This document shows, piece by piece, positions 13,436-22,642 of a DNA stretch of 22,642 bases. Below the pieces are notes generated by a model. It was not told the origin of the DNA. It searched no databases and worked only from the letters and a program-made list of their open reading frames with translations. Made by a program: the position numbers and the translations under genes. The stretch spans positions 1 to 22,642 of the IMG/VR virus record IMGVR_UViG_3300030104_005473; one strand, 5' to 3'. Every line of letters starts with the position of its first letter. The first letter of the stretch is position 1. Source of the DNA: a virus.

Positions 13436-13536
13436 GTGATTTATGGTGGTATATAAAGCATTATTTTATCGAGATAGTTCTTGTCTTGATGTTAGTAGCG
13501 GTTTTAATAAACAATAGGAGTCTATTATGGCAGTAA
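13432..13536 (+). CDS. Tiny membrane protein (34 residues)
   Basis: The frame starts with ATG overlapping the previous TGA and ends after overlapping the SSB gene start by 10 bases. The product is MSDLWWYIKHYFIEI followed by a hydrophobic helix VLVLMLVAVLI and NNRSLLWQ. One predicted transmembrane segment. The coupling on both sides argues that it is expressed. Function unknown. Confidence 0.5.
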   Translation: MSDLWWYIKHYFIEIVLVLMLVAVLINNRSLLWQ

Positions 13537-14048
13537 ATAAAAGCACAGGCAACATGAAAAGTCCTGTGAGGATGGATAAAATCATTGTAAAGAATCTTAC
13601 AGTAAAATGGTCACATTTACTTAAACCAGATCTAGAATATAACTCTGGTCATAGTGTTACCGTAGAAGTCAATAAAGAGTTGGCTAAACTACAAAAAGAG
13701 TTAATTGCACAAACTGGTGTTAAAAAGATCAATGGCTTAAAAGAAGATGAAGGTGTCAAGCTTGCCAGTTTTAAAAACAAGATACATAGCACAGAAGGTA
13801 TTGAGCGTTTTCCAAAGATATATGATGGCGATGGTCAAGTGACTAGCGATTGCCCTTTTGGTGGTGACAAGATAAATGTAGTGATCAAACCAAAGGTGTG
13901 GGATATGAATGGTAAGCAATCTATCAGTTGCTACCTGGAACAAGTTCAATGGGTAGAGAAGAATAGCGGTGAGTCTGTTACCTTTGAAAGAGTGGTAGAT
14001 AAAGCAGATGATGTCAGCTTTGAAAATGACGACAAGCTACCCTTTTAA
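13527..14048 (+). CDS. ssDNA-binding protein, gp2.5-like (DUF2815)
   Basis: The 173-residue protein has an OB-type layout, with strands IIVKNLTVKWSHL, HSVTVEVNKEL, DKINVVIKPKVW and QSISCYLEQVQWV. It ends in an acidic tail with an aromatic last residue, ENDDKLPF, as in phage SSBs where this tip recruits replication proteins. FPKIYDGDGQ and SDCPFGGDK match the DUF2815-type phage SSB signature. It coats single-stranded DNA during replication and recombination, and is coupled to the nuclease gene (stop and ATG overlap by one base, TAATG). Confidence 0.8.
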   Translation: MAVNKSTGNMKSPVRMDKIIVKNLTVKWSHLLKPDLEYNSGHSVTVEVNKELAKLQKELIAQTGVKKINGLKEDEGVKLASFKNKIHSTEGIERFPKIYDGDGQVTSDCPFGGDKINVVIKPKVWDMNGKQSISCYLEQVQWVEKNSGESVTFERVVDKADDVSFENDDKLPF

Positions 14049-15847: not shown

Positions 15848-15986
15848 TTATTACCAGGTGGTAGAGGTTTATAAGAATTTAATTAGAAAAAGAACACAAG
15901 AAGGAAAGGATAGCACAGCGTTGAAGAAACGACTGCTTGCTATAATGGTGAAAAATGGCAAAGACGAAAGCGCATACAGCTTATAA
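15828..15986 (+). CDS. Small basic protein overlapping two genes
   Basis: This 52-residue frame is read from TTG 15828, with AGGTGG about 8 bases upstream. An ATG at 15789 would give 65 residues but lies deep in the nuclease gene without a ribosome binding site. The product (LVTKQGSYYQVVEVYKNLIR followed by KRTQEGKDSTALKKRLLA and ending DESAYSL) is helical and basic. It overlaps the RecB-like gene by 32 bases. The 107 bases between the nuclease and RecB-like genes are otherwise unfilled, which supports it. Confidence 0.5.
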   Translation: MVTKQGSYYQVVEVYKNLIRKRTQEGKDSTALKKRLLAIMVKNGKDESAYSL

Positions 15987-16602
15987 GCTAAAAGACGGAA
16001 CAAGGGTTAAAGGTGTTACAACCATTCTTAATAACCTGGGTTGGAATAAGAACATATTGGTCGCCTGGGCCAGAAGGACTGCATTGGCTGGTGATGACCC
16101 AGATGCGGTATTGAAGGAAGCTGGTGCGATCGGTACATTGGCTCACTATCTATGTGAGTGTGATATAAAAGGCGAGAAAGCTGATATGACTGATTATTCA
16201 GCAGAGCAGATAGAGAAAGCCGAGAATGCTTTTTTAGGATACCTAGAGTGGAAGAAGATGACTAAGCCTAAGTACGAAGCGATTGAATTAAAGATGGTAT
16301 CAGAAAAATATAAGGTAGGTGGTACTGCTGATTTTATTGCAAGGATCAATGGGTCTTTGGTGCTGGGTGATTTTAAAACGAGCAAGGGTATTTACCCAGA
16401 AATGACCTGTCAATTGGCAGCTTATCGAAAAATGTATTTAGAGATTCAGCCAAAGGCGAAGATAGAATCAGCGATGATTTTAAAGCTAGATAAGAATAGC
16501 GGAAATTTCTCGCATCATTTTGTGGGGAAGTCTCAGTTGGACTGGGGATGGAATGTGTTTAAAGCTTGCATGGAATTAGAGAAGTTGCACAAGGAGATAT
16601 GA
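15955..16602 (+). CDS. RecB/Cas4-like PD-(D/E)XK exonuclease
   Basis: The 215-residue protein shows the RecB-family nuclease order: GTLAHYLCE (His64), an acidic strand EAIELKMVSEKYKVGGTAD with Asp126, the catalytic GDFKTSK (Asp139, Lys141) and the QLAAYRKMY motif (Gln153, Tyr157). The family degrades or resects DNA ends for recombination and replication, commonly beside phage SSB and primase genes. All key residues are present. The stop codon overlaps the ATG of the next small gene. Confidence 0.85.
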   Translation: MAKTKAHTAYKLKDGTRVKGVTTILNNLGWNKNILVAWARRTALAGDDPDAVLKEAGAIGTLAHYLCECDIKGEKADMTDYSAEQIEKAENAFLGYLEWKKMTKPKYEAIELKMVSEKYKVGGTADFIARINGSLVLGDFKTSKGIYPEMTCQLAAYRKMYLEIQPKAKIESAMILKLDKNSGNFSHHFVGKSQLDWGWNVFKACMELEKLHKEI

Positions 16603-20781: not shown

Positions 20782-20836
20782 TCTATTACCCTTTCTAGTT
20801 AATTATAAAAATACCCTTAGTGAAATAATATAAAAA
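20782..20836 (-). promoter_or_regulatory. Leader with GAAAGGGTA motif
   Basis: On the minus strand this spacer reads TTTTTATATTATTTCAC, then AAGGGTATTTTTATAATTA, then TAGAAAGGGTAATAG before the ATG. It repeats the AT-rich plus GAAAGGGTA pattern found before the genes starting at 22520 and 22267. It may be an internal promoter with a short leader. The TATAAT word is a fair -10 candidate. Confidence 0.4.
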
Positions 20837-20995
20837 TCACTTTACCTCTTTTTCTATTTTTTCATTCCACCATTTTGGTATACAATCATCACAATAAATC
20901 TTATTATCCCAATCTTGACCATATAGAAAAGGTGAATCATCATCATTAAACGAACCATCTTTTTTACACTCATCACATTTTAATCTATCTTCCAT
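20837..20995 (-). CDS. Small zinc-ribbon protein (52 residues)
   Basis: The ATG at 20995 overlaps the upstream TGA (TGATG) and is preceded by GAGGTGG, part of the repeated junction. The product has C7-x2-C10 and C35-x2-C38 (KCDECKK, YCDDC), a CxxC-x24-CxxC zinc ribbon, with acidic loops and a C-terminal KIEKEVK. The ending is only loosely like KESEVE. It was too short for routine calling but is fixed by its junction and Cys pattern. Function unknown. Confidence 0.7.
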   Translation of the reverse strand: MEDRLKCDECKKDGSFNDDDSPFLYGQDWDNKIYCDDCIPKWWNEKIEKEVK

Positions 20996-21015
20996 CACGC
21001 CACCTCACTTTCTTT
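20992..21015 (-). repeat. Junction repeat copy (KESEVA / TGATG)
   Basis: On the minus strand it reads AAAGAAAGTGAGGTGG followed by CGTGATGG. It ends the upstream protein with KESEVA, supplies GAGGTGG as ribosome binding site and starts the next gene at the shared A of TGATG. Confidence 0.75.
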
Positions 21016-21192
21016 AATATCATTAATAATTGCTTTAAACTCCTCAAGATCTCCTACCATTACAGTTGAATCGGTGCTAGTTAACCTTCTATGTTTTAAA
21101 ACCTTATAGAAATTTTCCAATCTTTCTATTGGTGTGTCATTTTCAAAATCATCTTTATCCATATATAAAGATTCGTAAAAATGATATTCCAT
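20995..21192 (-). CDS. Small acidic protein with KESEVA tail
   Basis: From the ATG at 21192 (the adjacent ATG at 21195 would overlap the previous stop further) the product has 65 residues: MEYHFYESLYMDKDDFENDT at the start, then a helical middle (ERLENFYKVLKHRRLTST), and an end in IINDIKESEVA. I recognise no family. Expression is implied by coupling on both sides. The tail is shared with neighbours of unrelated sequence. Confidence 0.65.
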   Translation of the reverse strand: MEYHFYESLYMDKDDFENDTPIERLENFYKVLKHRRLTSTDSTVMVGDLEEFKAIINDIKESEVA

Positions 21193-21209
21193 CATTCCAC
21201 CTCACTTTT
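21189..21209 (-). repeat. Junction repeat copy (DKSEVE / TGATG)
   Basis: The minus strand reads AAAAGTGAGGTGG then AATGATGG. The first few bases differ, so the upstream protein ends DKSEVE. The GAGGTGG and stop/start parts are intact. Confidence 0.7.
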
Positions 21210-21356
21210 ATCTAAATCCATTACTTCATCAACATAATGGTCAATAGCATCATATAGATTTCTTACCTCACCTTTTGATTCATCATAGTTTTTATGATAG
21301 TACCATAGTAAGAAATTGTCTATTTCAGTAGTAACTTCTTTAACTTTATCTTCCAT
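21192..21356 (-). CDS. Small acidic protein with DKSEVE tail
   Basis: A 54-residue frame, below common length cut-offs, runs from ATG 21356 to TGA 21192-21194. The product starts MEDKVKEVTTEIDNFLLWYY, is helical, and ends VMDLDKSEVE. Both ends lie in junction repeats, so it is clearly a member of the array. Function unknown. Confidence 0.65.
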   Translation of the reverse strand: MEDKVKEVTTEIDNFLLWYYHKNYDESKGEVRNLYDAIDHYVDEVMDLDKSEVE

Positions 21357-21376
21357 CATTCCACCTCGCTTTCTTT
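21353..21376 (-). repeat. Junction repeat copy (KESEVE / TGATG)
   Basis: The minus strand reads AAAGAAAGCGAGGTGG then AATGATGG. The single T-to-C change is synonymous in the Ser codon (AGT to AGC), and the encoded tail stays KESEVE. Confidence 0.75.
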
Positions 21377-21538
21377 TAATTCTATCAGTTGATCAACTAA
21401 TGAGTAATATGCCACCTTCAAATCATCATCAGCTTCAACCATGTTGAAATACTCAAGGATTATTAATTCCTTTATCCTACCTAAGAAACCTCTGACGTTA
21501 GAAAGCTTCTCTGTTTTTATTGCTTTTTGTTTATCCAT
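21356..21538 (-). CDS. Small helical protein with KESEVE tail
   Basis: The 60-residue product from ATG 21538 starts MDKQKAIKTEKLSNVRGFLG and continues as amphipathic helices (ELIILEYFNMVEADDDLK, YYSLVDQLIELKESEVE). It could form a helical hairpin. No family recognised. The preceding GTG in frame is less likely because the junction arrangement places the ATG on the TGA. Confidence 0.65.
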   Translation of the reverse strand: MDKQKAIKTEKLSNVRGFLGRIKELIILEYFNMVEADDDLKVAYYSLVDQLIELKESEVE

Positions 21539-21558
21539 CACTCCACCTCACTTTCTTT
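21535..21558 (-). repeat. Junction repeat copy (KESEVE / TGATG)
   Basis: The minus strand reads AAAGAAAGTGAGGTGG then AGTGATGG. The final Glu codon is GAG instead of GAA, another synonymous change that keeps KESEVE. Confidence 0.75.
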
Positions 21559-21753
21559 TATTAACTCAACTTGCTCGTTATCATATAAAGTCCAATCCAC
21601 CTGGTCTTTGTGTTCACTACCTTCATCCCAGGCGCTTATACCTTTCATCGCAGCCGAGTTCTCGATATAATAGCACCTACCCTTTATAGTGATATATAAA
21701 GAACAATCACTCCGAATATCTACTTTAATACCCTTATGTTTTATTAATTTCAA
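21538..21753 (-). CDS. Small beta-rich protein with KESEVE tail (TTG start)
   Basis: I place the start at TTG 21753, which overlaps the previous stop (TTGA) and has GAGGAG 5 bases upstream. The ATG at 21777 lies inside the previous gene and lacks this site. The 71-residue product reads LKLIKHKGIKVDIRSDCSLY, ITIKGRCYYIENSAAM and ends VELIKESEVE: beta-rich in the first half, acidic later. Function unknown. Confidence 0.6.
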   Translation of the reverse strand: MKLIKHKGIKVDIRSDCSLYITIKGRCYYIENSAAMKGISAWDEGSEHKDQVDWTLYDNEQVELIKESEVE

Positions 21754-21968
21754 AACAACTCCTCTTTCTCGAACCATTTTTTAGATTCTTTGTCATTCTC
21801 AAAATATAGAAAACCATCTAGAAGATTTTCAAAGTTCGAGACCCATCCTAATTCAAAGGCATTATCTACTAACCACTCATCTGATGTGTCTTTAAACTCT
21901 TCTTTAGGTAAAAAATCATCCTCTCTTAACTTCTCAACTAAGTCATCTTCAGTTCTAAAGAATAACAT
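21750..21968 (-). CDS. Small acidic protein without KESEVE tail
   Basis: From ATG 21968 (or the adjoining ATG at 21971) the product has 72 residues: MLFFRTEDDLVEKLREDDFL, EWLVDNAFELGWVSNFENLL, then DKESKKWFEKEELF. It ends with a different junction, where GAGGAG serves as ribosome binding site for a TTG start. It is the only inner gene of the array without the KESEVE tail. Unknown function. Confidence 0.65.
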   Translation of the reverse strand: MLFFRTEDDLVEKLREDDFLPKEEFKDTSDEWLVDNAFELGWVSNFENLLDGFLYFENDKESKKWFEKEELF

Positions 21969-21988
21969 CATTCCACCTCACTTTCTTT
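21966..21988 (-). repeat. Junction repeat copy (KESEVE / TGATG)
   Basis: The minus strand reads AAAGAAAGTGAGGTGG then AATGATG, joining the 99-residue gene to the next one. It is identical to the consensus. Confidence 0.75.
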
Positions 21989-22267
21989 ATTTAACTGTTT
22001 TAAATCAGCGCCTTTTAATAATTCACATAAGTAATTATTATTACCATCGTCACTATACGCCCCCTCCATGTTTATCTGTATTGAAGCGCCATTTAAACAT
22101 GCTGGAACTTCCTCATCTAATCTTCCATCAATAATAAGACCTTTCCCATCTTTTATTGGAACAGTTCCGACAAATATGTCAATCCTATCTCTAAAAATCC
22201 AAATTAATTGCTCAAGATTTTCTAAAGTTAGTTTATTTGCTAAATCAGCAGTTTCTATGCTTGTCAT
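21968..22267 (-). CDS. Small acidic protein with KESEVE tail (99 residues)
   Basis: The product starts MTSIETADLANKLTLENLEQ, has a beta segment (IFRDRIDIFVGTVPIKDG and GLIIDGRLDEEV), CLNGASIQINMEG, and ends DLKQLNKESEVE. The ATG is preceded by GAAAGGGTAGGAA and overlaps the small repeat-bearing frame upstream (ATGA). It looks like a compact alpha/beta domain. No family recognised. Confidence 0.65.
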   Translation of the reverse strand: MTSIETADLANKLTLENLEQLIWIFRDRIDIFVGTVPIKDGKGLIIDGRLDEEVPACLNGASIQINMEGAYSDDGNNNYLCELLKGADLKQLNKESEVE

Positions 22268-22335
22268 TTCCTACCCTTTCGTTTATTAAAAAAATCTTTT
22301 GACCCTGGCCATTTAGATATAAAAGACCCTGGCAT
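22264..22335 (-). CDS. Possible 23-residue peptide carrying the WPGS repeat motif
   Basis: A frame starts at ATG 22335, which overlaps the TAA of the upstream gene (TAATG) and has GAAAGTGAG as possible ribosome binding site. It ends TGA 22264-22266, overlapping the next ATG. It encodes MPGSFISKWPGSKDFF and a basic end KRKGRK. The WPGS words match the peptide read from the tandem repeats at the right end. It may instead be untranslated regulatory sequence. Confidence 0.35.
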   Translation of the reverse strand: MPGSFISKWPGSKDFFNKRKGRK

Positions 22336-22349
22336 TACTCACTTTCTTT
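22333..22349 (-). repeat. Partial junction repeat (KESE / TAATG)
   Basis: The minus strand reads AAAGAAAGTGAGTAATG. The first part equals the junction consensus, but a TAA follows directly, so the tail is cut to KESE and the overlap is TAATG. Confidence 0.6.
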
Positions 22350-22520: not shown

Positions 22521-22642
22521 TTTCCTACCCTTTCGTTATTAATATAAAAATCTTTTGACCCTGTCAGTAAAAATATAAAAGACCCTGGCCACTTAAATAT
22601 AAAAGACCCTGGCCACTTAAATATAAAAGACCCTGGCCACTT
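22517..22642 (-). CDS. Open frame across the tandem repeats (partial, possible coding)
   Basis: Reading in from the right edge, the frame stays open and ends TGA 22517-22519, overlapping the next ATG (ATGA). It encodes three exact copies of KWPGSFIF, a fourth degenerate copy LLTGSKDF, then YINNERVGK. The 24-base unit is divisible by three, so an open frame would persist by chance once started. Whether it is translated is uncertain; other frames of the unit are open too. Confidence 0.35.
   Translation of the reverse strand, partial: KWPGSFIFKWPGSFIFKWPGSFIFLLTGSKDFYINNERVGK
22556..22642 (-). repeat. Tandem 24-bp repeat array running off the right edge
   Basis: On the minus strand the core GGCCAGGGTCTTTTATA recurs exactly every 24 bases; three units are identical and the inner one is diverged. 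It contains the palindrome TGGCCA and an AT-rich TTTATATTT box. Two more diverged units lie at about 22300-22333. It could be a promoter/operator array, an iteron array or repeat-coding DNA. There are no spacers. Confidence 0.75.

Follow-up and report, generated by a model that had tools for sequence, protein, structure and literature searches.

What joins a run of unrelated small phage genes at nearly identical junctions, and why the same few residues recur at the ends of their proteins, is the question raised by the DNA analysed here, a complete IMG/VR record of 22,642 bp (the window). The record is probably a fragment of a temperate siphovirus, with an integrase, a tape measure, an exonuclease and a Gp2.5-like annealing protein. 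Its minus strand carries two short operons with eight small genes in all (52-99 aa), adjoined by replication genes on the opposite strand, and between positions 20992 and 21988 five near-identical 24-nt junctions on the minus strand, with the consensus AAAGAAAGTGAGGTGG-NR-TGATGG, join small genes that are unrelated to one another. The initial annotation had proposed that these junctions allow small genes to be swapped by recombination, or that the acidic tail they encode is a functional tag. Our analyses show a repeated element, hereafter the cassette, which is conserved at the nucleotide rather than the peptide level, coincides exactly with breakpoints of similarity and marks swaps between otherwise unrelated phages. 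We consider it likely that this 24-nt element is both a stop-restart ribosome-binding module and a short homology 'port' for the exchange of small early genes.

The small-gene operons and their junctions

The relevant features of the window are these:

13527-14048, plus strand: Gp2.5-like single-strand binding/annealing protein, phrog_112
15955-16602, plus strand: phage exonuclease, phrog_298, a possible recombination partner
20837-20998, minus strand: small gene F5, CxxC...CxxC (zinc-ribbon-like); five different preceding genes in different phages
20995-21195, minus strand: small gene F10, a family by protein clustering
21192-21359, minus strand: small gene F7, a family by protein clustering
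21356-21541, minus strand: small gene F49, a family by protein clustering
21538-21753, minus strand: small gene F0, 71 aa, TTG start; six different next genes in six non-redundant contigs
21750-21971, minus strand: small gene F19, which overlaps F0 by TTGA in place of a cassette and makes up one common block with it
21968-22267, minus strand: small gene F18, 99 aa, a family by protein clustering
21965-21988, minus strand: cassette 1, AAAGAAAGTGAGGTGGAATGATGT; encodes the KESEVE end of the 21968-22267 protein and holds a GAGGTG site and a TGATG restart
21535-21558, minus strand: cassette 2, AAAGAAAGTGAGGTGGAGTGATGG, a pattern match
21353-21376, minus strand: cassette 3, AAAGAAAGCGAGGTGGAATGATGG, a pattern match
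21189-21212, minus strand: cassette 4, GATAAAAGTGAGGTGGAATGATGG, tail DKSEVE
20992-21015, minus strand: cassette 5, AAAGAAAGTGAGGTGGCGTGATGG, tail KESEVA
22335-22349, minus strand: relic AAAGAAAGTGAG-TAA at the end of the first small gene (KESE), with neither ribosome-binding site nor restart
20837-20857, minus strand: operon-final relic, ATAGAAAAAGAGGTAAAGTGA then TTTTT, tail IEKEVK, with no downstream start

The repetition of these junctions is real, since the minus strand of the window has five matches to AAAGAAAGTGAGGTGGAATGATGG with up to three mismatches and 100 shuffles have none. Every one of the five combines the end of the upstream ORF with GAGGTG and a TGATG restart, stop and start overlapping within TGATG and GAGGTG lying at a normal spacing from the start. 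A KESEVE tail had been described at six junctions; it is found in three genes (21356, 21538 and 21968), but the tail is KESEVA at 20995 and DKSEVE at 21192, and at 22335, described as a partial copy, AAAGAAAGTGAG is kept before TAA but the ribosome-binding site and the restart are both absent. The operon closes on a degraded copy at 20837: behind IEKEVK comes TGATTTTT, with TGA, then T-rich sequence, and no start codon. At 21750 the inner junction differs in sequence from the others, as first described: it is GAGGAGTTGTTTTGA, a non-cassette junction giving the TTG start at 21753.

The proteins between the junctions are otherwise unrelated, as had been claimed: full-length homology extending beyond the tail was found among none of the window proteins, which belong to separate families by protein clustering and are similar in the tail alone. 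There is hence next to no chance that the genes are diverged tandem duplicates with retained ends, an explanation that the repetition within one operon might invite but which conflicts with intervening proteins that are unrelated and have each their own relatives in other phages. Searches of the small proteins against Pfam and PHROGs returned no significant family, and among 50,697 records of isolated phages F0, F5 and a 694-aa protein of the window had no match and the tape measure weak partial matches only. Rfam, tRNA and terminator scans of the cassette region found nothing, and promoter-like sites there are about as numerous as in shuffles.

Other repeats accompany these operons. The contig ends (22571-22642) in three perfect 24-bp tandem copies of AAATATAAAAGACCCTGGCCACTT, and related copies of CCAGGGTC precede the next operon at 22283-22333; both occur also in relatives, and might form a leader or bind a regulator. 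Operon heads in the window (22521-22550, 22268-22295 and 20782-20812) and in L044, L125, L129 and other loci carry a second repeated leader, approximately ATTAATAACGAAAGGGTA-NNAAAATG, which may be a companion start module. Behind the last small gene lies TGATTTTTATATTATTTCACTAAGGG (20787-20842), which recurs behind the operon-final genes of L002, L024, L039 and L011 and appears to be a common operon-end element.

Distribution and conservation of the cassette

Beyond the window, 28 viral contigs contain the strict cassette pattern and 71 a looser one, and the core pattern has 82 matches in 46 contigs, on a single strand within each contig, the reversed control pattern having none in the same 46. 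Three unrelated single hits to the strict pattern in 257 Gb of bacterial genomes were rejected as true cassettes and taken as chance. We oriented 54 loci, called their genes and clustered the 447 proteins into 232 families, and count 96 cassette junctions in 40 non-redundant IMG/VR contigs, most of which were fetched via the cassette pattern and are fragments. The cassette thus joins small accessory genes of an early-type operon across a large environmental phage pool. In a separate phage group (L033, L043, L076, L056 and L081), with one match to an Acinetobacter phage, ...REIREESEVA / TGATGGTTGA is likewise followed by different genes. In L024 (gene 897-1214 of the reversed locus) a cassette variant, AAAGAAAGTGAGGAAAGCAATG, makes the genes overlap by 20 nt and changes the tail to KESEESNDINKA.

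The recurrence of the tail on many unrelated small proteins, with the reading frame kept in 75 of 79 cassettes, might suggest that acidic KESEVE is a functional C-terminal signal for localisation, stability or partner binding, and synonymous variation had been read as a hint of selection on the peptide. That reading fails on 77 non-redundant cassettes, where comparison with AAA GAA AGT gives 10 synonymous and 61 non-synonymous codon differences against a ratio of possible single changes of 3:22, so that non-synonymous change is as free as chance allows. All 61 glutamate codons of the cassettes are GAA, although 35% of those in the contigs overall are GAG, and serine is always AGY. Tails erode in operon-final copies (EQSKAK, KESKA, KESEA, IEKEVK), and in these operons many genes encode no such tail. 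A peptide tag is therefore very improbable. The substitution ratio and codon bias indicate instead that the cassette is conserved as nucleic acid or through recent copying; a conserved site always encodes the same tail because TGATG sets the frame relative to the ribosome-binding site, and the tail would seem to be a by-product of the nucleotide sequence.

Translational coupling is an established principle, and the anatomy of the junction fits a role for the cassette as a ribosome-binding site with coupling. The module would consist of the ORF 3' end, a strong Shine-Dalgarno core (GAGGTG), the TGATG stop-restart and the A-rich upstream AAAGAAAGT; a ribosome ending one gene would meet GAGGTG and restart at the overlapping ATG. 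Of 99 coupled copies 86 retain GAGGTG, compared with 4 of 10 operon-final ones (p=0.002), the two classes being our own classification of the copy lists.

Gene exchange at the cassettes

Relatives of the window genes keep the junction while the neighbouring genes change. At cassette junctions one gene family has different next or preceding genes in different phages; of the further family members, 29 of 30 have a new next gene there, against 17 of 31 where a tight junction is not a cassette (p=2e-4). The contrast is weaker by family, any conserved next gene being present in 1 of 12 families at cassettes and 9 of 20 at other tight junctions (p=0.05), or 13 of 37 with loose junctions included (p=0.14). 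Among homologous pairs, which are not independent, the same next gene was kept in 1 of 64 with cassette ends and in 34 of 115 at other junctions. Gene swapping also occurs at some non-cassette junctions.

DNA similarity breaks inside the cassette, identity falling there to about 30% in 63 pairs with a common upstream gene and 48 with a common downstream gene. In the former it is about 50-57% before the cassette, 78-90% inside and 30% after, and in the latter the mirror image. Identity between the window and L024 drops from 95% to 37% across the F0 junction, and that between the window and L002 rises from 30% to 93% across the F5 junction. The left part of the cassette tracks the upstream gene while its right part goes with the downstream one, which fits a crossover inside the cassette. 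The least biased view comes from whole-record searches, in which 19 of 23 ends of homologous segments in the window operon lie in cassettes, where 17% would be expected from the share of the interval that near a cassette. G047, a phage of 46 kb, has in common with the window 20836-21012 only (177 bp, 90% identity), which is one gene and its upstream cassette; the fragment G033 has 20836-21015 only, also one gene, and G049 has 20990-21358, two genes. The segments common to G013 include 21534-21989, which is the F19-F0 pair without a cassette at its inner junction, and G020 and G023 have only the 23-24 nt of a cassette in common with the window. In G030, which is 92-97% identical over most of its core, F10 is last in the operon, and in the window F10 is followed by F5, the difference to be expected if a single gene had been gained or lost between two cassettes. 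These comparisons strongly support the earlier suggestion that the junctions allow small genes to be swapped by recombination.

Paired, zinc-ribbon-like CxxC motifs occur in several of the exchanged small proteins (window 20837-20998; families F2, F14 and F32), for which early host-takeover or counter-defence roles are possible.

Identical junctions would give operons that are otherwise unrelated 16-24 bp of homology. Any pair of copies could then host a crossover by which a gene or gene block is gained, swapped or lost, and what results would always be in frame, ribosome-bound and coupled. The breakpoints suggest that such crossovers may be homologous, driven by phage annealing and exonuclease functions or by host enzymes, and not illegitimate events followed by selection. 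The exonuclease and Gp2.5-like annealing protein encoded by the window phage count for homologous exchange, and the shortness of the homology, 16-24 bp per cassette, counts against it. Cassettes are no more alike within a genome than between genomes (no excess within, p=0.55), so there is no sign of gene conversion.

The same pattern might arise if the cassette were simply an optimal initiation and coupling site under selection, with illegitimate recombination striking anywhere and only in-frame, coupled products surviving. The extended Shine-Dalgarno core and TGATG, the better retention of that core in coupled copies and the A-rich upstream part, which could serve as a translational enhancer, are all in keeping with this. 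On the other hand, AAAGAAAGT contributes little 16S rRNA pairing, and among 211 larger genes of the contigs GAAAGTGAGG is found at 10, AAGG or GGAG being used at most of them; AAAGAAAGT is thus not general to the ribosome-binding sites of these contigs, which argues against a pure translation element. Moreover, the breakpoints fall inside the repeat, and intact cassettes without a following start lie at the operon ends of L002, L011 and L024. Together with one copy in L004 that lies entirely beyond a stop codon, these fit junctions inherited by exchange. We regard selection on translation alone as unlikely, though not negligible. A dedicated site-specific recombination site, with an enzyme recognising the cassette as in integrons, would account for discrete genes between repeated sites that often move one at a time; it is scarcely credible for an element that has no inverted-repeat architecture, is itself coding and has a variable left end.

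Relation to known elements and significance

The element that we favour, a ribosome-binding junction doubling as an exchange port, works like several known phage elements, yet has its own sequence and anatomy. Short boundary sequences were proposed as crossover sites in P22 and lambdoid phages (Susskind and Botstein 1978; Clark et al. 2001, as cited in PMC3029335), and those of the lambdoid phages, for example in the nin region, are described in that source as likewise short common sequences at gene borders and proposed sites of homologous exchange. In lambda nin we find four junctions that share a G-rich stretch and end much like GCNGCATGA; start and stop overlap there, and the C-termini are Ala-Ala or Gly-Ala. 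The cassette too is one short sequence at the borders of different modules, where genome similarity starts or stops, but it differs in sequence, hosts, greater length and its seat on a TGATG restart, and the gene families it joins number in the dozens and lie in phages whose DNA is otherwise dissimilar. Genes 67/68 of Island3 compared with Brujita (cluster I mycobacteriophages) encode unrelated proteins with a common 18-residue C-terminus, where, as at the cassette, a common 3' DNA sequence acted as recombination site (PMC3029335); that single event spans about 50-60 bp, whereas the 16-24 bp of the cassette are reused at 96 junctions in 40 contigs.

The start-associated sequences (SAS) of cluster K mycobacteriophages, repeats of unknown role, stand like the cassette at the ribosome-binding position of many non-structural genes, are longer than rRNA pairing explains and sometimes include the upstream stop (PMC3203893). 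SAS are however 13 bp, GGGATAGGAGCCC, a consensus other than that of the cassette, lie 3-7 bp before the start and have inverted repeats in about half of cases, and swapping is not their reported feature (PMC3203893); the cassette encodes the upstream C-terminus and marks breakpoints. PeSLs, the promoter/stem-loop cassettes of T4-like phages (Arbiol 2010; Comeau 2014; as cited in PMC4503421), are functional analogues built of different parts; as that source presents them, they are mobile regulatory sequences lying among small early genes, whose shuffling they mediate. They carry an early promoter and stem-loop motifs, and the cassette is a coding ribosome-binding junction with neither, in a region with no terminator-like site.

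It is a speculative notion, and one we would not expect to hold, that the cassette is a common-currency port, kept because through it unrelated phages, perhaps sharing one host, can trade single small genes in frame and ready for translation, with selection for exchangeability itself and phage annealing enzymes working on 16-24 bp. The junctions nonetheless offer a natural set of dozens of breakpoints within one short coding element, including swaps between phages without other common DNA. They also advise caution, in that identical C-termini of unrelated phage proteins can be a by-product of RNA or DNA, and a search for them can lead to small accessory genes whose function is unknown.
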